The notes below the pieces were generated by a model. The model searched no databases, was not told the origin of the DNA, and worked only from the letters and a program-made list of their open reading frames with translations. The position numbers and the translations under genes are program-made. A stretch of 64,000 nucleotides of DNA, from contig QCCO01000001.1 in the NCBI GenBank assembly GCA_003278895.1, positions 146,566 to 210,565 of the forward strand. Direction: 5' to 3'. Positions 30,585 to 49,960 of the stretch are shown piece by piece (the first letter of the stretch is position 1; each line of letters starts with the position of its first letter). The stretch is from Prochlorococcus sp. AG-347-L19 (lineage in GTDB: Bacteria > Cyanobacteriota > Cyanobacteriia > PCC-6307 > Cyanobiaceae).

Positions 30585-30806
30585 TAGATCCTCTATAAGT
30601 AAGCTTTATAATCTTTTCTTCTTGTTTTCTACAATATACGAATGACTTTCCATTGAAATACATGTTTACCATGATGCAGCTCCTGAGCCTGCTCAAGTCC
30701 CCGTCCTATGGCTTGAGTCGTACTGCGGTCTATCAGATGGTAGATCGGACGATTTTGTAGTATTCACTACAATCTATTTATAAAGTATTTATACTTAGAT
30801 GTCAAC
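30585..30806 (+). repeat. 222-nt dispersed element, copy A
   Basis: Aligns without gaps to 45531..45752; highly similar core CATGTTTACCATGATGCAGCTCCT...GTCCCCGTCCTATGGCTTGA. Confidence 0.85.
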
Positions 30807-38380: not shown

Positions 38381-38547
38381 AAATTAATTAATAATATTGA
38401 GGACATGAAGAACAAGATATCAAAAGATTCTTAGAAATTTAAGAAAGAAACTTTTTTATTAGTTCTTTAGTTTGAATGAGAAGCAATTCAAAAAAGATCT
38501 GAATTTTGTATTTAAGGTAACAGCTTTTTTGTGAGCATTATTCAGAA
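38381..38547 (+). repeat. direct repeat copy 1: 3' end of NNTEWLD gene plus downstream sequence
   Basis: Near-identical to 42753..42920. Confidence 0.85.
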
Positions 38548-40806: not shown

Positions 40807-40962
40807 TATCACTTTCCTAAAAAGGAAATTTGATGGATAATGAGCCTAGAATTGAGCGTTTTCAGTATTCTGTTCACACACAGTTCACACATTGTAATTT
40901 TCTTATAACTAATTGATATGACTGAAATTAATTACTGGCTAATGAACCATGTACCAGCTTGA
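40807..40962 (+). pseudogene. truncated 5' copy 1 of EVE-domain gene with leader
   Basis: Leader ATCACTTTCCTAAA..GTTCACACACAGTTCACAC..TTGATATG + MTEINYWLMNHVPA*; matches 49392 onward. Confidence 0.8.
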
Positions 40963-41065
40963 TATAACTAGGTTTTTCGAAATTTATAAAGTTTTATTCT
41001 AGCAAAATTCTAGAAAAACTAATAAATATAAAGCATCCATTGAGGTAAAGATTTAGGATAATTTG

Positions 41066-41115
41066 TGATTGACAGTCGAGCTAAACTTAGAGGGATAAAA
41101 GCCTCTTTTTTGATG
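41066..41115 (+). repeat. GACAGTCGATCTAAACT leader element, copy 2
   Basis: TGATTGACAGTCGAGCTAAACTTAGAGGGATAAAAGCCTCTTTTTTGATG. Confidence 0.75.
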
Positions 41116-41286
41116 AGAAACAAATTTAAAAGATCAGCTTTTTTTGATATGTCTGATGACCTTTTCTATCGAATATCATTAATAGGATTTTTAGTTGTTT
41201 TTAGCTCAATGGTATTTTTTCTAACGAAATATAGAGAAAAAAAAGTTAATAATATAAGCCAGATTTCCATAACTGAACAAATTTAA
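41113..41286 (+). CDS. small membrane protein
   Basis: MRNKFKRSAFFDMSDDLFYRISLIGFLVVFSSMVFFLTKYREKK...; start revised. Confidence 0.6.
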   Translation: MRNKFKRSAFFDMSDDLFYRISLIGFLVVFSSMVFFLTKYREKKVNNISQISITEQI

Positions 41287-41300
41287 TTTTTAAAGCAGTA

Positions 41301-41657
41301 ATGCAAAGATTTATAATTTCACCATTATTTGCTTTATCTAGGTTTTTTATAAATATTTACGGAATATTTTTAAAGTTTTTTCTTCAATTAAATGGTGGTT
41401 ATTGGTCAAGAATTGGTTTAGCCGAAAATATTACAGAGGAAAGAATAAAAAAAAGAAGATTTTATATCCTTCCTTTTTATATTCTTCTTGCTTTATTGTT
41501 TGGATTACTATCTGCTCTATATTGGTATTTTGTTATTCTCCATGTGCCACTTTCAATAGAAAAATATTTAAGTCCATTGAATAACAATATTGCTTTAATA
41601 ATTGCTTTTGCGACTTTCTTTGGTTGGCTTTATATTCTTTGTAAAACAAACAAATAA
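41301..41657 (+). CDS. membrane protein, hypothetical
   Basis: 118-aa ORF, ~3 TM. Confidence 0.6.
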   Translation: MQRFIISPLFALSRFFINIYGIFLKFFLQLNGGYWSRIGLAENITEERIKKRRFYILPFYILLALLFGLLSALYWYFVILHVPLSIEKYLSPLNNNIALIIAFATFFGWLYILCKTNK

Positions 41658-41667
41658 AATGCTTACT

Positions 41668-42073
41668 AAGAGATGATGTGGTCCGCGGATTAAAGATTTA
41701 ATTAATCATGATTAAATCATTCTTAAGGATTCATGCCAAATATTTATGACCGATTACTTTATATATACGACAGTTCTGGTGATCGACTCGTCCAAGGTTG
41801 ACCTACTAGATCTTCACTAATCCATGGTCTGCAACACCAAGGTAAATTAACTTATCTAATCTTTACGGTAAGAAAGTTAAGTGATCAGATATTAATCTTT
41901 CGGGATTAATTCTGAACTATCTTAAAAATAAAGTCGTTTGTAAAGCATGAAGAAGTGAGTAATCACTTTTACATTCAAAACTAATTTCTAAGAAAATTCT
42001 TAATCTGATTATCAAATAGATCTCCTCTCTGTCGTACCATTTAAAAAAGACCTGTAAAAGGGTCTTTTTTTAT
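41668..42073 (+). ncRNA. candidate structured non-coding RNA with terminator
   Basis: Several strong hairpins incl. TCAGA(T)ATTAATC/GATTAATTCTGA, AAGTGA-GTAA-TCACTT (GNRA-type loop), terminator AAAAAGACC/GGTCTTTTT; no supported ORF. Confidence 0.5.
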
Positions 42074-42258
42074 GTCTTAAATTTTATTTATTTACTGTTA
42101 ATCCACAAATAATTAAATATTTTTATCTCGCTCTTTCGCGATCAGTTAATCCTTTATCAAAAGTAAAAAAGAAAGTACAGATGCTATTCAATGCAACCAA
42201 CAAAAGAACTACTGATCTTCCATGTTGATTTAATTGAAGTGATCTTTGAGTCATACTT

Positions 42259-42441
42259 TTAATAATCTTCATTGTAATCGGATGGACTACCAGTTAAAGA
42301 ACAAACAACTGATTCCTCTTTTTTCATTTCTTTTATTTCCATTATTGGTCTGCCCATTTTCTTAAGAACATCTATATCTTCTTTAGTCTGACAGCGAGCA
42401 ATTATGTTTCCTTTTTGATCAAAGCAACTGTAGTAAGTCAT
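42259..42441 (-). CDS. 60-aa hypothetical protein
   Basis: MTYYSCFDQKGNIIARCQTKEDIDVLKKMGRPIMEIKEMKKEE... Confidence 0.6.
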   Translation of the reverse strand: MTYYSCFDQKGNIIARCQTKEDIDVLKKMGRPIMEIKEMKKEESVVCSLTGSPSDYNEDY

Positions 42442-42464
42442 TTTATTAAATGCAATTTAAAGTT

Positions 42465-42592
42465 CATGGTTGATTTCAGTTGCAGCAACGCAACCAACTC
42501 ATGACAACCATATATTTAATTTAGGTCAGCCATAGATTTAAATGGCTAAAAAAACATACCTCTTTCCGTACCTAAATGTTCCTCAAACCGCA
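42465..42592 (+). repeat. upstream module, inverted relative to 46009..46134
   Basis: CATGGTTG...CTCATGACAACCAT...CCGTACCTAAATGTTCCTCAAACCG. Confidence 0.7.
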
Positions 42593-42668
42593 CACATTAG
42601 ATACGCAGTGTTTTAGTCAAATCAATTATAACAAAGAGGTAGTTAAACGAATATACAAAGGAGAATTT

Positions 42669-42806
42669 ATGAGTGGAGATTTTGAGACTCTTGAAATTAA
42701 TCAACCTAAAATTAAATATTTAAAACCAGAAGATAATACAGAATGGTTAGACAAATTAATTAATAATATTGAGGACATGAAGAAGAAGATATCAAAAGAT
42801 TCTTAG
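42669..42806 (+). CDS. 45-aa microprotein, NNTEWLD family
   Basis: AGGAG-like SD; MSGDFETLEINQPKIKYLKPEDNTEWLDKLINNIEDMKKKISKDS. Confidence 0.65.
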   Translation: MSGDFETLEINQPKIKYLKPEDNTEWLDKLINNIEDMKKKISKDS

Positions 42807-42920
42807 AAATTTAAGAAAGAAACTTTTTTATTTGATCTTTAGTTTGAATGAAAAGAAATTCAAAAAAGAATTTAAATTTTGTATTTAAGGTAACCGCTTT
42901 TTTGTGAGCATTATTCAGAA
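42753..42920 (+). repeat. direct repeat copy 2
   Basis: Near-identical to 38381..38547. Confidence 0.85.
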
Positions 42921-42941
42921 TAAGAGTCCGACTATTTTTTT

Positions 42942-43085
42942 ATGCAAAAAAATTTAGATGAAAATTCTTATGAAAAAAGAATTGAAAATATAGAAAAAGG
43001 AAAATCTTATTTAAAAAGTAATGGATTTTTTAAATCAAAATCTAATTTATTCGAAGACATACAAAGATTTATCTATAAAAGGTAA
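42942..43085 (+). CDS. 47-aa microprotein
   Basis: MQKNLDENSYEKRIENIEKGKSYLKSNGFFKSKSNLFEDIQRFIYKR. Confidence 0.45.
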   Translation: MQKNLDENSYEKRIENIEKGKSYLKSNGFFKSKSNLFEDIQRFIYKR

Positions 43086-43203
43086 TTTAAAAAATATTTT
43101 TTACTTTTGATTAATTAAATCTCTCCATAAGCAAGCCATTACATAAAAGAAAGAAAGACTTGAAAAGGTTAGGAGAAAAAAAGAATGGGTCAATTTTCTA
43201 TAA

Positions 43204-43308
43204 CTAAATTAGACCAAATAATCCTACAGTAAAACCAACAGCCGAAAAGAATATGAACTCAATCAAATCTCTTGGGGCAGAGTTCATAAATAAACCGATT
43301 TGAGTCAT
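43204..43308 (-). CDS. 34-aa membrane microprotein
   Basis: MTQIGLFMNSAPRDLIEFIFFSAVGFTVGLFGLI. Confidence 0.4.
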   Translation of the reverse strand: MTQIGLFMNSAPRDLIEFIFFSAVGFTVGLFGLI

Positions 43309-43312
43309 GATT

Positions 43313-43507
43313 TTATGACTTGATAGAATCTCTTAAATCAAACTTTTCAGCTTTTTCAATTTGACACTCAGTATCATCTTCAGCACATTTGATTTCAGCT
43401 TTTTTGTTTATGTGGCTACTACAACCGCCTGCTATGACTGGTAAACCGGTCGTAGCTGTAAAACCAGTTAAACATGCAAAAGCTATATAAGGAAAAAGAC
43501 TTTTCAT
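43313..43507 (-). CDS. small putative secreted protein
   Basis: 64-aa ORF with hydrophobic N-terminus and acidic Cys-containing C-terminus. Confidence 0.55.
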   Translation of the reverse strand: MKSLFPYIAFACLTGFTATTGLPVIAGGCSSHINKKAEIKCAEDDTECQIEKAEKFDLRDSIKS

Positions 43508-43708
43508 TTTATTGTTACTTTATGTAAACCTATTATGTTACATAAAAAGCTCAAGTGTGAGTATCTGATAATTCGCGTGCACCCTATACCAATCATCTAA
43601 TGTGATTAAGCAAACCTATGAGTTTTATACTTATCTGAGTATTTTTACTTATATGTTGAATTGAAGACTTTAAATAATTAATGTTTGTTTTGGGTTTATA
43701 TATAAGTC

Positions 43709-43864
43709 ATGGATAAAGACCATTTAATTGATTTAATATCTAATAGCATTATTTCTGAGATTAAAGATCTCGAAATTAATGAGGAAAAATTGATTGCAAA
43801 TAATTATTTAAATAATCTGAATTTAAATCAGCTTAGAATAATTTCTAAAGAATTTATTTTGTAA
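43709..43864 (+). CDS. 51-aa microprotein, MDKDHLI family copy 2
   Basis: MDKDHLIDLISNSIISEIKDLEINEEKLIANNYLNNLNLNQLRIISKEFIL. Confidence 0.65.
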   Translation: MDKDHLIDLISNSIISEIKDLEINEEKLIANNYLNNLNLNQLRIISKEFIL

Positions 43865-43942
43865 TTTTTATTGAATATTTATTTAAATAAATGAGATTTT
43901 CTTTACTATCATTTGAATTTTAATAAGTTAATACCTTTTAAT

Positions 43943-44128
43943 ATGAATGATTCAGAAGAATTTAAACCTAGCCTTAAACAGATAAATGAGGATATCAGAC
44001 CTACATGGGAAGATATCAAAAAACAATCAGAAGTTTTAGTTAACAAACTTGGTTGCCCTAGATCATTTGTAGGAGGGATGCTTCATGCAATAGCAAGCGA
44101 CTTCTCTGATATGAAAACTTGGGAATAA
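43943..44128 (+). CDS. hypothetical small protein
   Basis: MNDSEEFKPSLKQINEDIRPTWEDIKKQSEVLVNKLGCPRSFVGGMLHAIASDFSDMKTWE. Confidence 0.6.
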   Translation: MNDSEEFKPSLKQINEDIRPTWEDIKKQSEVLVNKLGCPRSFVGGMLHAIASDFSDMKTWE

Positions 44129-44278
44129 ATGAAAAACTTATTACTTACACCACTTTTCAAACTATTCAAAAAAAGCACTTTCCTCTTATCACTAAATCAA
44201 AACTCTTGCCCTGTTTTAGATGCTGAAGACATAAAACAGCAAGAACAGAAAGAAGCTATTGAAAGGTTGTACCCGTAA
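44129..44278 (+). CDS. 49-aa microprotein adjacent to previous stop
   Basis: MKNLLLTPLFKLFKKSTFLLSLNQNSCPVLDAEDIKQQEQKEAIERLYP. Confidence 0.45.
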   Translation: MKNLLLTPLFKLFKKSTFLLSLNQNSCPVLDAEDIKQQEQKEAIERLYP

Positions 44279-44346
44279 ACTTTTAAGAGAAATGTATCAG
44301 ATCATATATGCGATGCAGCACGGTCCTAAGACCCCCCATGCCACCC

Positions 44347-44520
44347 ATTACTTTCCTAAATTCTGACTTTGATGGATAATAAACATATAAAAAAAATCTG
44401 ATTCTAGCAAAATTCTAGCAGATAAATTCCTCCAATTACCTTGATATGACTGAAGAAAATTTTTGGCTAATGAACTATGTGCCAGTAGTCATAGCAAAGG
44501 TTCTCGGAAACCTATAAAAA
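44347..44520 (+). pseudogene. truncated 5' copy 2 of EVE-domain gene with leader
   Basis: ACTTTCCTAAA..TTTGATGGATAAT..TTGATATG + MTEENFWLMNYVPVVIAKVLGNL*. Confidence 0.7.
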
Positions 44521-44580
44521 AATGTTCACGATATGTTCACGATTTTTGCAGCTAAAATTGATTGAAAAAATTTGATAATA

Positions 44581-44727
44581 ATGGCAATTTCACACTATAG
44601 AAAACAAAGGATAATGCTTTTAGCAAGACTCAATCTTGGTTTAGCTACTGAAGATCAAGAAGAAATTGATCTTTATAATCACTATCAAAAAAATATTTAT
44701 TTAGAACAAAATCAACAGCAGCAATAA
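44581..44727 (+). CDS. 48-aa microprotein
   Basis: MAISHYRKQRIMLLARLNLGLATEDQEEIDLYNHYQKNIYLEQNQQQQ. Confidence 0.5.
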   Translation: MAISHYRKQRIMLLARLNLGLATEDQEEIDLYNHYQKNIYLEQNQQQQ

Positions 44728-44736
44728 AAAAATATC

Positions 44737-44785
44737 TGATTGACAGTCGATCTAAAATAAAGTGCAAATAGCTCCTTTTTTTATG
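44737..44785 (+). repeat. GACAGTCGATCTAAACT leader element, copy 3
   Basis: TGATTGACAGTCGATCTAAAATAAAGTGCAAATAGCTCCTTTTTTTATG. Confidence 0.65.
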
Positions 44786-45061
44786 TCTCTTGAAACTACT
44801 GTTTTTACATTCAAAATTAGTGTCCCTTATGAAAAATGGGCTGCTGTTTATGACAGCGAAGAAAATATAAAAATGATGAAAGAAACTGGAATGACTTGCT
44901 TATACAAAGGTGTAAATAAAGATGATCCAACCAGTGTAATTGTCATTGAGCAGGGTGAAGAAGGTAAAGCAATAGCTATGTTTAAAGATCCAGAAGTTAA
45001 ACCATTAATTGAGAGTGCAGGTCATATTTATGATTCAACTGTTATTTCGAGCTACTTTTAA
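44783..45061 (+). CDS. DUF3764-like protein
   Basis: MSLETTVFTFKISVPYEKWAAVYDSEENIKMMKETGMTCLYKGVNKDDPTSVIVIEQGEE...; start revised. Confidence 0.7.
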   Translation: MSLETTVFTFKISVPYEKWAAVYDSEENIKMMKETGMTCLYKGVNKDDPTSVIVIEQGEEGKAIAMFKDPEVKPLIESAGHIYDSTVISSYF

Positions 45062-45096
45062 TTGACAGTCGATCTAACCTCGACCCTACTTTTTTA
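45060..45096 (+). repeat. GACAGTCGATCTAAACT leader element, copy 4
   Basis: AATTGACAGTCGATCTAACCTCGACCCTACTTTTTTA. Confidence 0.6.
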
Positions 45097-45163
45097 GATA
45101 AAGTACCTATATTTTCTTTTTGATTTAAAAGTTATTATTTTTGCAAATAACGGGATTAAAAAA

Positions 45164-45286
45164 ATGATGAAACTTGCGATCATTTTCTTACCAATTGTCT
45201 TTGCACTTATATGGGCTCTGTTTATTGGGTTAAGAATAAATAGAGTAGAAACTAGAGATGGAAAGAGAAAATTAGTTAATTATTAA
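45164..45286 (+). CDS. 40-aa TM microprotein
   Basis: MMKLAIIFLPIVFALIWALFIGLRINRVETRDGKRKLVNY. Confidence 0.5.
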   Translation: MMKLAIIFLPIVFALIWALFIGLRINRVETRDGKRKLVNY

Positions 45287-45323
45287 AGGATTTTCCTCAG
45301 ATAACAATCTTATTTTTATCTAG

Positions 45324-45458
45324 TTATTCAAAATCTTCTCCGGTTTGACTTTCACCTTCCCTTTTCCAATAGTCCTCATATTTTAAATTTCTTTTTTGAT
45401 AATCTAATGCGTTCATGTTCTTATCGAGTATGGCAAAAGGAGAATTAGTAAATTTCAT
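45324..45458 (-). CDS. 44-aa microprotein, EDYWKRE family
   Basis: MKFTNSPFAILDKNMNALDYQKRNLKYEDYWKREGESQTGEDFE. Confidence 0.55.
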   Translation of the reverse strand: MKFTNSPFAILDKNMNALDYQKRNLKYEDYWKREGESQTGEDFE

Positions 45459-45530
45459 GGCATAACACCTCTAAAAAAAATAGTTTATTGAATATCTAAT
45501 AGATATGAGATTTTATTTATCTCAAGTAAC

Positions 45531-45752
45531 TAGATCCTCTATAAGTAAGCTTTATTGTTTTCTCTTCTTGGCTCTTGCAATATACGAAAGATTTGCCGTT
45601 AAAATACATGTTTACCATGATGCAGCTCCTTGTCTTGATCAAGTCCCCGTCCTATGGCTTGATTCGTACTGCGGTCTATCTAATAGTAGATCGGACGATT
45701 TGGTAGCATTTACTACACTTTATTTATAGAGTATTTATACTCAGTTGTCAAC
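45531..45752 (+). repeat. 222-nt dispersed element, copy B
   Basis: Gapless alignment to 30585..30806. Confidence 0.85.
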
Positions 45753-45769
45753 CCTTAAGATTAAAATTC

Positions 45770-45952
45770 TCAGTCGCAATAGACTAAACAATGCTGATTA
45801 GTTGGATGTTCTCTACATTCCCTCTTCCAATAGTCTTCAAATAAATGGTTATCTCTATCAAGATTTCTTGTTATTTCTTCCATTCTGTTTCCAGCATAAT
45901 TAAATGCTTTTAGGTATCTTGGAAGGATTGTGAATTGATTGAATAGTTTCAT
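45770..45952 (-). CDS. 60-aa microprotein, EDYWKRE/HCLVYCD family
   Basis: AGGAGG SD; MKLFNQFTILPRYLKAFNYAGNRMEEITRNLDRDNHLFEDYWKRECREHPTNQHCLVYCD. Confidence 0.65.
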   Translation of the reverse strand: MKLFNQFTILPRYLKAFNYAGNRMEEITRNLDRDNHLFEDYWKRECREHPTNQHCLVYCD

Positions 45953-46008
45953 TTAGACCTCCTAGATCTATACTTATATTGTCCTCCTATAGCCTTGAAA
46001 TTTATAGG

Positions 46009-46134
46009 TCGGTTTGAGGAACTATTAGGTACGGGAAGAGGTATATATTTTGAATCAAAAAATACTAAAGCAGTCCTAAAATTAATACATGGTTGTCATG
46101 AGGCAGTTGCAGGGATACAACTGAAGCCAACCAT
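46009..46134 (-). repeat. upstream module, inverted relative to 42465..42592
   Basis: Reverse complement matches CTCATGACAACCAT...CCGTACCTAA..GTTCCTCAAACCG. Confidence 0.7.
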
Positions 46135-46403
46135 AAATTATTAGAGATCAATTCAAGATTTAAAACACACTCATTATTTAAAAAGAAATCTTCTCCACTT
46201 TAGATAAAACTAAAATAAATCAGGATTTGAAAACAATGTAATCATAGATACCAACAGGTATTTAGCTAATTGATTATATATTTAACACACGAGTTAACCC
46301 GTTCCAATTTGTTGACTCTGAGGTTTTACCGTTGATTCCTTATCTTCTGAAAGTTGTTCCTTGCAGCTTTAGATTAAAAAACGGTCTTTATTTAATCTAA
46401 ACC

Positions 46404-46541
46404 ATGCAAAAGAAAATCGTAAAAAAATATGCTGAATTAATGCATCAGGCGCAACAAGCTACTGGAAGAAAAGAAGCAGTTGGACTAATACATAAAGCAG
46501 CAAAGTTAAAAACTAAATTTGATAATTACGAGATGATGTGA
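46404..46541 (+). CDS. 45-aa microprotein, paralog of 272..400
   Basis: MQKKIVKKYAELMHQAQQATGRKEAVGLIHKAAKLKTKFDNYEMM. Confidence 0.55.
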   Translation: MQKKIVKKYAELMHQAQQATGRKEAVGLIHKAAKLKTKFDNYEMM

Positions 46542-46778
46542 TCATCTACAAAGCAATTTTCCCAAATAAGAATGTCATTCTTAAATAAATTCTCGATTAA
46601 AGATATCATTCTCTCAAGCAAAGAGGCATATCAAAAGGAACTCAAGAACAACGGTGTGGGTTCACAAATAGGTAAGTCATTATTTAATAAATTCTCGATT
46701 AAAGATTTTTCCTTCAATATTTCCAACAGATAAGCGTAATTTATAAAGGGGTACCGTCATGATATATAGAGGAAAGGG

Positions 46779-46922
46779 GTACACTTTCCTAAATAGAAAC
46801 TTTGATGGATAATAAATTCATATTCAAAGAAGTTACCCAAACTTTACTCAAACCCTATATATTCGCCGAGATCCTATGGTACAACAGGAACCTAGCTACT
46901 AGCTAATGAAGTGGGTACTTGA
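46779..46922 (+). pseudogene. degenerate 5' copy 3 of EVE-domain gene with leader
   Basis: ACACTTTCCTAAATAGAAACTTTGATGGATAAT ... CTACTAGCTAATGAAGTGGGTACTTGATGC vs intact CTACTGGCTAATGAAGAGTGAGCCTGATGC. Confidence 0.65.
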
Positions 46923-46924
46923 TG

Positions 46925-47650
46925 CTAAAAACTAAGCCTTCCAAATCCCTTAATTCTTTTTTCTGTTTTATATCCTGCTTGTACGAATTGAGTATTATCA
47001 GTCCCGACATCATAAAGAGTATAATTTTTTCCTGCCCCAATACCAATAACAGCTTTTTGAGGAACTTTCTGCTCTTTCTTACGATTTCCATTTAAATCTT
47101 CTACTTCAGAATTAACAATCCCCTCTGTCAATTCCAAGTGAAACTGCTGTTTACTTCTTGCAGTAAATAATCTGTTTACCTGAAGACGTGTAAGTCTATC
47201 AAGGAGTGTCAGTGGCGGCGTATCTAGTGTTAAATTTTCGCCAACATCTTTTGAGCTTCCGTGAATCAAACCACAATCAAGTTCAACAAATCCAAATTGA
47301 AGTGCTGCTATCCAATCAAGAAATGATTTGTCTACAGCATTCGTAAGAGACTTAACTACTTCTTCACCCTTATTTATTCTCAAAGCTTCAGCTCTTTGAT
47401 CACCACGGTAACCACTTTCCAAGAGGATTTGTTCTTCCCACCAACCATATATGCACCATGGTTGTAAATCATTACTTTTTGGATTAATTAACCTATGGAG
47501 AAGCCTATTACAGTTTTTTTCAGGACCTATCATATCCCCCAAAACAAAAAGAGTTATATTACCAGGAGTTTTTTTTAAGTCTTTTTGAATAAGTTCATAA
47601 GTATCTAGATCCCCTTTAAGACCACTTACGAGTGCCCAGCGTTCTATCAT
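46925..47650 (-). CDS. calcineurin-like phosphoesterase-fold protein, divergent active site
   Basis: LFVLGDMIGPEKN..WCIYGWWEEQ..CGLIHGSSKD. Confidence 0.7.
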   Translation of the reverse strand: MIERWALVSGLKGDLDTYELIQKDLKKTPGNITLFVLGDMIGPEKNCNRLLHRLINPKSNDLQPWCIYGWWEEQILLESGYRGDQRAEALRINKGEEVVKSLTNAVDKSFLDWIAALQFGFVELDCGLIHGSSKDVGENLTLDTPPLTLLDRLTRLQVNRLFTARSKQQFHLELTEGIVNSEVEDLNGNRKKEQKVPQKAVIGIGAGKNYTLYDVGTDNTQFVQAGYKTEKRIKGFGRLSF

Positions 47651-48462
47651 CTTTCACAAACATGAGATGCATCTTCAGCTTGTTCTGCAAATTCGAATCC
47701 ATTTTTTAAACGCCATGCAAAAATCGGAGGAAGACCGGCATCTATTATTGCTTTACAAGTAAGTTCAATATCATATTCCACTTCTCTAATTTTTACTTCA
47801 TTAGTGACATCGTTATAAACAACATAAGTAGCTTTAGTTCCTCCATGTCTTGGCTCTCCAACTGAACCTGCATTTACTATTCTTCGCATCGGCAATTGAA
47901 TTTCTTTTTCTTGAGTATCTTTGGGAACAGCATTTTTGATCTTTACAGCAATTGAACCATCTGCTAATTCGCGAATATAAGGTTGGTGAGTATGACCACA
48001 AAATAGAATCTCTGCTCTGGCATTTTCAACTCTCTCAAGAGCTGCGAATGCATCCATATCGGGTAGAAGATATTCATGTTGACTATTAGGACTACCATGA
48101 ACAAAAAGACACTTATCTTTACGTATTGAGTAGGGTAGATTAGCTAGATAATCCTTATTTTCTGTAGTTAATTTATCTGTAGTCCATTGATGAGCAAAAT
48201 GACCTCTTTTTTCAGCAAGCTGAGAAGGATAACTACAATCGCAAGCATCTAATCCATCAACAACGTCTTCGTCCCAACATCCCTGACAAGTAGGAATTTC
48301 TTTATCTCTTATTAACTCAATAACCTCATTAGGTTGAGGACCATAACCCACTAGATCTCCAAGACAGGTAATATTTGTAATTCCTTGGAGTTCAATATCT
48401 TTTAAGACAGCCTCTACTGCAGGTAGATTTGCATGTAAACATGAGATGACAGCTTGATTCAT
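47647..48462 (-). CDS. metallophosphoesterase family protein, divergent active site
   Basis: AVISCLHANLPAVEAVL; CLGDLVGYGPQPNEVIELI; GCWDEDVV; FVHGSPN; FCGHTHQP. Confidence 0.85.
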   Translation of the reverse strand: MNQAVISCLHANLPAVEAVLKDIELQGITNITCLGDLVGYGPQPNEVIELIRDKEIPTCQGCWDEDVVDGLDACDCSYPSQLAEKRGHFAHQWTTDKLTTENKDYLANLPYSIRKDKCLFVHGSPNSQHEYLLPDMDAFAALERVENARAEILFCGHTHQPYIRELADGSIAVKIKNAVPKDTQEKEIQLPMRRIVNAGSVGEPRHGGTKATYVVYNDVTNEVKIREVEYDIELTCKAIIDAGLPPIFAWRLKNGFEFAEQAEDASHVCER

Positions 48463-48469
48463 TTTTAAG

Positions 48470-49252
48470 TTAACGGCGAGCAGTTTGTAATTGTGAATTT
48501 CTAAGTGAAGTTTGATGATGATCTAGTACAGCATCATTAAGAAGGCAATTATGAATCGTTGCTTTTATTGACTCGAAGTTTAAATTTTTCCCTTGTATAA
48601 CAATTTCAGAACATCTTTCTGGTCTTCCATTAAGAGGGGCAACTTGGTTTAATGTTTGATATTGAGATCCTTGCTGACTGACTATCCAATTAAACAAGAT
48701 GTAACGCCCATCAGGTAAGTTCATTAATGCTTTTGCTCTATATACATCCCCATAAGCACCATTAACTAATTCAAACCAAAAAGTATTCAAGCTTGCAGGA
48801 TCCCAAATATGCTTTTGAAGATCAAGGCTTATTGATTCAATTTCTCTAAAATCTAAAGTATCTTTAATTGATAATTCTGGATCTCTACCAAAATGAAGAT
48901 ATCTATTTGGCTGGAGATTATATTTTTCAAGTTCATTAATAATTCTCAGATCAACTCCATTAATACCCTGAGATTTAGGTATAAAAAATTGTGGAAATTC
49001 AATAATAATAAAAATGTTTTCTTTATCTTTCTCTGATATTGAGTTTGAAATAGATAAGTCTAATAAGTTAGGAATTTGATCTTTCAAAAAAGCAAAATCA
49101 ATTTTTGAATTTATTGCTTGCTCTAAATTAATTTCGGAATATCCTCCTAGACGTAAGTAACCACAATTACCAGAATAATTCTTAAAAGTATTTAGTATCC
49201 AATTTGTCTTACCGCATCCTGGCGAACCTGATATTAAACAGACTTGACTCAT
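48470..49252 (-). CDS. CobW-like (COG0523-type) P-loop protein
   Basis: CLISGSPGCGKTNWI; C-terminal GDVYRAKALMNLPDGRYILFNW. Confidence 0.75.
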   Translation of the reverse strand: MSQVCLISGSPGCGKTNWILNTFKNYSGNCGYLRLGGYSEINLEQAINSKIDFAFLKDQIPNLLDLSISNSISEKDKENIFIIIEFPQFFIPKSQGINGVDLRIINELEKYNLQPNRYLHFGRDPELSIKDTLDFREIESISLDLQKHIWDPASLNTFWFELVNGAYGDVYRAKALMNLPDGRYILFNWIVSQQGSQYQTLNQVAPLNGRPERCSEIVIQGKNLNFESIKATIHNCLLNDAVLDHHQTSLRNSQLQTARR

Positions 49253-49291
49253 AAAAAAATACTACCTAATGTATAAAATTTACACCAATAT

Positions 49292-49310
49292 GAAAATGAA
49301 AATCATTTCT
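49292..49310 (-). promoter_or_regulatory. Fur/Zur-like box upstream of CobW-like operon
   Basis: GAAAATGAAAATCATTTCT, 15/19 by eye to Fur consensus GATAATGATAATCATTATC. Confidence 0.55.
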
Positions 49311-49501
49311 GTTTTCGATTTTAAATATTTATTTTTTGATTTAAGTGATAAAAACATTAATATTTAGAGAATTAATTACTCCATACCAACCATCACTTTC
49401 CTAAATAGATAATTTGATGGATAATTAACCTAGATTTGAACGTTTTTAATATTCTGTTCACACACCGTTCACACATTGTAATTTTCTTCTAAATTATTGA
49501 T

Positions 49502-49960
49502 ATGACTGAAATAAACTACTGGCTAATGAAGAGTGAGCCTGATGCCTACAGCATAGATACTTTAAAAAATGAAGGCGTAACTTTATGGGACGGAATAAGA
49601 AATTATCAGGCTAGAAATTTTATGAGAAAAATGAATAAAGGAGATAAGGTTTTTTTCTATCATTCGAACTGTAAACCCCCAGGTATTGTGGGACTTATGG
49701 AGGTAATAGATTTAAATATTGTTGATCCTACTCAATTTGATAAAAATTCAAAATATTTTGATCCAAAATCGAAACCAGATAATCCAAGATGGGATTGTGT
49801 AAAAGTAAAATTTAAATCTAAGTCAGATAAAATTTTAAGTTTACCTGAATTGAAGATTTTATTTAATGAAGATGAGTTATTAGTCGTAAAAAAAGGGAAT
49901 AGGTTATCTATATTACCTGTCAAAAATGATATTGCAAAAATACTACTGGGAAAAATATGA
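49502..49960 (+). CDS. EVE-domain protein
   Basis: MTEINYWLMKSEPDAYSIDTLKNEGVTLWDGIRNYQARNFMRKMNKGDKVFFYHSNCKPPGIVGLMEV. Confidence 0.9.
   Translation: MTEINYWLMKSEPDAYSIDTLKNEGVTLWDGIRNYQARNFMRKMNKGDKVFFYHSNCKPPGIVGLMEVIDLNIVDPTQFDKNSKYFDPKSKPDNPRWDCVKVKFKSKSDKILSLPELKILFNEDELLVVKKGNRLSILPVKNDIAKILLGKI

Follow-up and report, generated by a model that had tools for sequence, protein, structure and literature searches.

How does a gene come to stand behind several incomplete copies of its own beginning? The question is raised by a stretch of 64,000 nucleotides from Prochlorococcus sp. AG-347-L19 (contig QCCO01000001.1, positions 146,566 to 210,565; the whole stretch is called the window below, and positions are counted from its first letter), in which an intact EVE-domain gene is preceded by three truncated copies of its leader and first codons, all in the same orientation. 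The original prediction, made from the letters of the window, was that DNA had repeatedly been inserted here, and that every event had regenerated the start of the gene and left a fossil boundary behind. We consider it very probable (roughly 0.9) that the array consists of integrative elements inserted serially by a tyrosine recombinase at an 11 bp core, TGGCTAATGAA, in codons 7–10 of the EVE gene. Prochlorococcus is the ocean's commonest photosynthetic bacterium and its genomes are streamlined; how it acquires adaptive genes is a central open question, and what has been described until now is a route through tRNA genes.

End exchange at an 11 bp core in the EVE gene

The leader motif ACTTTCCTAAA-N7-TTTGATGGATAAT has four exact matches in the window, all on the + strand and each where a leader had been predicted (Table 1), and no further match in the 1.30 Mb genome; the reversed control gave 0. 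The first copy is indeed very similar to the leader of the intact gene (87 % identity over 150 bp). The block shared by the copies terminates at the core, inside the EVE codons. The 11-mer alone is not rare, with four occurrences in the window at up to one mismatch against 2.35 expected, and its weight comes from its context and from the comparison between genomes.

Across the genus, 121 of 266 genomes contain exact leader motifs, one to five per genome (reversed control, 0), and in every match listed the spacer is exactly 7 bp, though 2–12 bp were permitted; where listed, the motifs are clustered and lie on a single strand per locus. The EVE gene itself is present in 221 of the 266 genomes, almost always as a single match. 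EVE loci were fetched from about 58 genomes for comparison of the arrays. Leaders found with mismatches permitted number one to eight per 20 kb stretch (eleven over two stretches in genome G006), and the 58 EVE loci have one to nine cores TGGCTAATGAA per array, invariably oriented with EVE. Cargo and order differ between the loci, and the four copies of the window are not carried with the same contents throughout the relatives. Alignment of the leaders separates several families, whose common block terminates inside the EVE reading frame.

The 110 bp on each side of 140 cores were clustered into left and right classes, and the main left classes pair with nearly all of the main right classes. 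Among pairs of junctions that have the same left class and different right classes, mismatches jump at position +11; among pairs with the same right class the rise comes immediately ahead of position 0, and within the 11-mer mismatches are near zero both ways. Read from these junctions, the crossover is the 11 bp TGGCTAATGAA, which corresponds to EVE codons W-L-M-K. Comparison of empty and occupied sites shows the same exchange of ends, in that one upstream stretch of 1,011 bp (98–99.7 % identity), which ends at the core, is followed by EVE or, in a different genome, by a unit. The displaced leaders of the window are all found directly fused to EVE elsewhere: leader 1 in locus L067 (96.3 % over 214 bp), leader 2 with 2 kb of upstream DNA in L073 (96.6 % over 2,011 bp), and leader 3 in L036 and L054, in the former together with 1.5 kb upstream (99.4 % over 1,556 bp).

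The leader had been proposed as the recurring site, and the shared block is real, but the core lies in the WLMK codons. The leader motif (ACTTTCC...GATAAT) was accordingly ruled out as the crossover, as the ends switch 95–125 bp further right, and a conserved 7 bp overlap between two half-sites within the motif was dropped, since fixed spacing with variable sequence appears to suit a promoter-like element better. We infer that the motif (TTTCCT, 17 bp, GATAAT) is a promoter; a simple sigma-70 scan did not have it among its listed promoters.

The leaders adjoining EVE supply an in-frame ATG followed by no stop in 56 of 56 cases, and 114 of the 129 displaced leaders still have an in-frame ATG. 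What is found at EVE is thus insertion at the 5′ end of a protein-coding gene whose start is replaced in frame, and the comparative data support the predicted regeneration of the gene start by repeated site-specific insertion. Leader 3 had been described as the most decayed copy; it represents instead another leader class (MVQQEPSY...), and L036 and L054 have this leader fused directly to an EVE gene that is intact. Judged by their sequences, the leaders form several families that came with different elements, and are not a single leader in various states of decay.

When homologous whole units are compared between genomes, their mean identity is 98.9 % and that of the EVE bodies 92.0 %. The unit exceeds EVE in similarity in 54 of 54 pairs, which are not independent, many involving the same unit. 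Unit 3 of the window recurs at 99.0–99.8 % identity in eight other genomes, alongside EVE bodies that are 88–94 % identical to that of the window, and the whole of unit 1 is found at 97–98 % identity in L042, L056, L060 and L070. Because homologous units are far more alike than the neighbouring host gene, at least some units have, by this measure, spread recently and horizontally. Each insertion does leave a boundary, as had been suggested, but the units are not all fossils.

Repeats at the unit ends and a linked tyrosine recombinase

Direct-repeat pairs with a period of exactly 11 bp stand at fixed distance on either side of the core. Of 129 right ends, 86 have exact 9-mers repeated in tandem at spacing 11, mostly 58–60 bp from the core, as have 65 of 185 leaders, 62–67 bp before it; such repeats number 0 in four control sets, and other spacings (8–15) gave essentially none. 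The sequence types include GTTCACACACC, ATTCTAGCAAA, TTATCCAAACT, CATACCAGCAC, CGTCCACACCT, CATTCGAACCT and TGTTCACGATA. The two ends of one unit share arm sequence in 43 of 101 units, compared with a mean of 17.2 and a maximum of 28 in 2,000 shuffles. These repeats are most readily taken as the arm sites of a recombinase.

A search with PF00589 near EVE in 46 genomes found no integrase, because the integrase of this site scores below the cut-off (E-value 0.002 only). It was found by reading the large open reading frames (ORFs) in the arrays, and is a divergent tyrosine recombinase of 528 residues, which in G044 begins about 115 bp right of a core and is followed by HsdM, HsdS and HsdR. Full-length copies are present in G044, G092, G142, G215, G052 and G120, whereas the copy in G124 is split over two frames, and in all seven genomes the integrase lies right of the core. 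The full-length genes begin about 75–120 bp from it and so adjoin the attachment (att) site, while most units, those of the window included, have no integrase; other genomes contain dozens of fragments, a large share of which lie at EVE arrays. The absence of a visible integrase from the window had been noted from the start, and there is no homologue at 40–50 kb; a recombinase with matching att sites, for which a search had been suggested, is present in relatives. Five elements have both ends visible (G044, G092, G215, G120 and G124), and each has one arm type at both ends and directly adjoins EVE. A conserved tyrosine recombinase of about 389 residues, encoded elsewhere in all genomes, had been considered as a trans-acting enzyme and was abandoned once the linked integrase appeared.

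PHROGs and NCBIfam gave no useful match, and the linked recombinase is without an NCBIfam assignment. Its profile aligns end to end with those of other long Prochlorococcus tyrosine recombinases (hhalign, 99.9 %). An AlphaFold2 model built from 22 sequences (pLDDT 76.8) is matched by Foldseek to Cre, XerA, lambda Int and Tn1549 Int with probability 1.00, the E-values for the first three being 1e-8 to 1e-5, and the protein as modelled has the core-binding and catalytic fold of tyrosine recombinases. Of the catalytic R-K-H-R-H pentad and tyrosine, R464 and Y496 are invariant in the 22 sequences; the first histidine is replaced by Tyr461, and the position of the second is Asn487, or histidine in relatives.

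The model predicts a β sheet and a helix at the N-terminus. Residues 1–75 are 84–100 % identical to those of the G044 integrase in CATACCAGCA elements and 40–51 % identical in elements with other arm types, whereas the catalytic domain is 81–90 % identical to that of G044 within the genus. Two TTATCCAAAC integrases (G120 and a fragment in G001) share 97 % identity in the N-terminal part. The N-terminal domain thus seems, in the few elements available, to track the arm type, in the direction predicted for an arm-binding domain. Scars of the integrase C-terminus lie beside the arms at 18 of 129 right ends, and because of these part of the small units are, to judge from the sequences, internal-deletion derivatives of autonomous elements; no recognizable scar is present among the units of the window.

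Mechanism, rival explanations and related systems

In the mechanism that we propose, a unit would consist, in order, of core, right-end arms, cargo, leader and first codons. The right end of an element would bring its own leader, made up of arm-type repeats, the promoter-like motif and the first six to eight codons, start codon included, and further arm-type repeats would stand at the left end. A crossover within the core would displace the old leader and start codons upstream and join the incoming ones in frame to the remainder of EVE, such that the gene would never be lost. Autonomous elements (5.6–10 kb) encode the 528-residue recombinase, and most units (median 3 kb) have lost it and kept their ends, so that replacement of a 5′ end is iterated into an integron-like array whose units have exchangeable arms and mostly no integrase. 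The linked recombinase presumably catalyses the exchange of ends. Units would also be excised, with which the empty and occupied junctions seen in different genomes are compatible, and we infer that integrase-free units move in trans, since they have intact ends and have spread recently. The broader view, that this is an undescribed integron-like system of Prochlorococcus in a protein gene, in which an invariant 11 bp core is combined with interchangeable arm types that a Ser-for-Arg tyrosine recombinase recognizes through exchangeable N-terminal domains, and in which integrase-free cassettes are moved in trans by different variants, each rebuilding the EVE promoter and start, has in our estimation slightly better than even odds.

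Several observations weigh against serial insertion by this recombinase. Its first catalytic arginine is replaced by Ser300 in the EVE-site clade: at this position (G044 numbering) the whole clade and its Synechococcus relatives read TGMSPEE, whereas sister proteins at other genes read TGARPEE (TGARPEEL). The invariant R319 is a candidate substitute, by analogy with IntDOT of CTnDOT, in which the first catalytic arginine is likewise absent and another arginine downstream takes over (PMC8138268). Arm types are unmatched at the two ends of 58 of 101 units; inverted versions explain part of these, as probably do composites and missed boundaries, and composites, missed cores or homologous recombination therefore contribute too. 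Unit 3 spread although its left arm repeats are missing. The window's genome, which is 79 % complete, has no recognizable copy of the EVE-site integrase, and many of the genomes compared are incomplete. No excised circle or free attP was found, viral contigs and phage records having neither the motif nor an integrase relative.

Some of these points would suit homologous recombination between similar leaders, which could shuffle the segments upstream of EVE with no dedicated recombinase; leader similarity extends over up to 150 bp, some units look composite in their unmatched ends, and unit 3 spread without left arms. The breakpoints nevertheless fall within 11 bp where an adjoining leader of the same class would permit exchange elsewhere, the ends have repeats of 11 bp period at fixed distance and a linked tyrosine recombinase, and units 99 % alike stand beside EVE genes 85–94 % alike, all of which makes this explanation very improbable. 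Decayed tandem duplications of EVE, the copies being remnants of whole paralogues that have lost their bodies, would account for the position of all copies beside the gene in one orientation and for the mutation of some cores; but every copy terminates within the same 11 bp and is followed by one of a few element ends instead of decayed EVE, different leader classes alternate, and nearly every genome has one EVE match. The uniform breakpoint already refutes duplication for the array as a whole, and we give it next to no credence.

A less drastic departure is that the array is old and vertically inherited: each unit would have been fixed by an integrase that it once encoded, none would have moved in trans, and changes of neighbour would reflect new autonomous insertions only. 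The autonomous elements with both ends visible do all directly adjoin EVE, and 18 right ends have integrase scars, yet integrase-free units 99.5–99.9 % identical lie beside EVE genes 85–94 % identical in several genomes, and near-identical integrase-free units have different left neighbours; we regard this as unlikely, though the least so of the alternatives. The elements might, lastly, be tycheposons of the described tRNA-targeting kind, with which they share the host genus, a tyrosine recombinase (its profile related to those of other long Prochlorococcus tyrosine recombinases) and non-phage cargo such as nutrient genes. The 64 kb window has no tRNA gene, however, the target is protein-coding, and all loci read have the core within EVE codons, so that this identification is, if anything, a shade less probable than homologous recombination.

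By analogy, serial insertion at EVE would belong to the class of islands that replace a 5′ end, represented by the dusA islands and by SXT in prfC, whose site-specific integration is of this type (PMC4482086, PMC8409611); the iterated array is the new feature. The dusA-specific genomic islands (Farrugia et al. 2015, PMC4482086; IMEVchUSA3, PMC8409611) are similar in having an integrase gene that adjoins the att site, and a tandem pair is occasionally reported, but they are mainly single, with their own integrase and att repeats of about 21 bp, whereas the EVE arrays have an 11 bp core, up to nine cores and mostly small integrase-free units. SXT/R391 is a large integrative and conjugative element that forms no cassette-like array, and no conjugation genes were noticed at EVE. 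Tycheposons (Hackl et al. 2023, via PMC10872708) have the same host, a tyrosine recombinase and cargo islands, and seven tRNA genes are described for their borders; the target sites there are tRNA genes, here the EVE gene. Integrons and CALINs resemble the EVE arrays in being directional arrays of small cargo units at a short core, most without an integrase; EVE units differ in that they carry a leader and arm repeats, are added beside a protein-coding gene and restore its start. At EVE arrays neither an integron integrase nor attC as such was found, without a dedicated attC search, and the joined sequence is a fixed 11-mer. The literature searched contains no description of the EVE insertion site, though an earlier mention within the tycheposon work is possible.

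Range, cargo and the units of the window

Relatives of the integrase are present in 53 genomes of 17 genera in a family-wide sample of 400 genomes. At twelve loci read in other genera (L144, L146–L154, L156 and L158) an EVE-type core with repeats of 11 bp period has the integrase on its right, and longer stretches from other Prochlorococcus genera also contain multi-core arrays, with an EVE protein only 62–68 % identical. Segments of at least 200 bp at 85 % identity shared between the window's genus and other genera were absent from a first screen, and later only leader-sized and short segments were found. More distant integrase relatives adjoin other genes. In L159 and L170, integrases about 30 % identical lie directly after a frame that resembles the 3′ end of ychF (named by sequence reading), which suggests further protein-coding genes as targets of the family.

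With motifs in nearly half of the genus genomes and integrases at the same site in other Prochlorococcus genera, EVE is a second and very common route of gene acquisition, whose arrays spread and shuffle adaptive genes. With boundaries this precise, cargo can be assigned to units and its spread measured, examples being type I restriction systems and the phosphatase PhoX. The combination of an invariant core with swappable arms is a natural experiment on changes of arm specificity in tyrosine recombinases, and offers a possible gene-insertion tool for an organism that is hard to engineer.

The segments of the window carry different cargo, as had been described for it (Table 1). Elsewhere, a 4606 bp unit between two cores of L066 (11102 to 15708, EVE orientation) carries an alkaline phosphatase PhoX (PF05787, E-value 1e-169), and a 6.5 kb unit of L068 (8290–14807, EVE orientation) encodes a flavoprotein and a CN_hydrolase of the nitrilase type and resembles a nitrilase gene cluster.

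Table 1. Positions of leaders, units, repeats and the target gene in the window
Feature	Position	Strand	Details
Displaced leader 1	40811..40946	+	Promoter-like motif 40811-40841; start codon 40918 (MTEINYWLMN); core TGGCTAATGAA 40936-40946
Leader 1 arm repeats	from 40872 and 40883	+	GTTCACACACA/GTTCACACATT
Unit 1	40936..44463	+	3,528 bp; microprotein cargo; own leader at right end, same arm type
Unit 1 right-side arm repeats	from 40996 and 41007	+	ATTCTAGCAAA/ATTCTAGAAAA
Displaced leader 2	44350..44474	+	Promoter-like motif 44350-44380; start codon 44446 (MTEENFWLMN); core 44464-44474
Leader 2 arm repeats	from 44401 and 44412	+	ATTCTAGCAAA/ATTCTAGCAGA
Unit 2	44464..46899	+	2,436 bp; DUF3764 gene; minus-strand glutamine-II riboswitch 45638-45700
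Unit 2 right-side arm repeats	from 44523 and 44534	+	TGTTCACGATA/TGTTCACGATT
Displaced leader 3	46783..46910	+	Promoter-like motif 46783-46813; start codon 46876 (MVQQEPSY); different leader class
Leader 3 core	46900-46910		One substitution, TAGCTAATGAA (TGG to TAG change)
Leader 3 arm repeats	from 46833 and 46844	+	TTACCCAAACT/TTACTCAAACC
Unit 3	46900..49519	+	2,620 bp; leader 4 at right end
Unit 3 cargo			Calcineurin-like phosphoesterase (PF12850); 241-residue protein without Pfam match; minus-strand CobW_C-domain protein
Active leader 4	49395..49530	+	Promoter-like motif 49395-49425; EVE start codon 49502; core 49520-49530
Leader 4 arm repeats	from 49456 and 49467	+	GTTCACACACC/GTTCACACATT
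Intact EVE-domain gene (target)	49502..49960	+	PF01878, E-value 6e-53; codons 7-10 (W-L-M-K) hold the core

The two ends of unit 1 share an 18 nt match. Unit 2 is probably a composite, since the arm type of its leader is unlike that of its right side, and the left end of unit 3 has no arm repeats. A 128 bp inverted pair (42463-42590 and 46010-46137, 76 % complementary) connects units 1 and 2, and other loci have similar short ORFs in either orientation. A direct repeat of about 165 bp (38381-38547 and 42753-42920, 91–93 % identity) has one copy left of the array and the other within unit 1; the DNA left of the first leader may be a further, older element.

The window contains two glutamine-II riboswitches (Rfam RF01704), both on the minus strand, of which one (30692-30754) lies outside the array; since the other sits within mobile unit 2, the riboswitch may travel as cargo. 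Many cargo genes have, immediately upstream of the start codon, a conserved element of about 48 bp, GATTGACAGTCGATCTAACATAGAGGGATAAAACCCTCTTTTTT, in which a −35-like box is followed by a terminator-like hairpin, and which is present in the window at 41060-41110, 44731-44756 and 45053-45090. Across the fetched EVE loci TTGACAGTCGA has 93 copies on the + strand and 4 on the − strand. The GATTGACAGTCGATCTAACATAGAGGGATAAAACCCTCTTTTTT element may be a portable promoter or attenuator.

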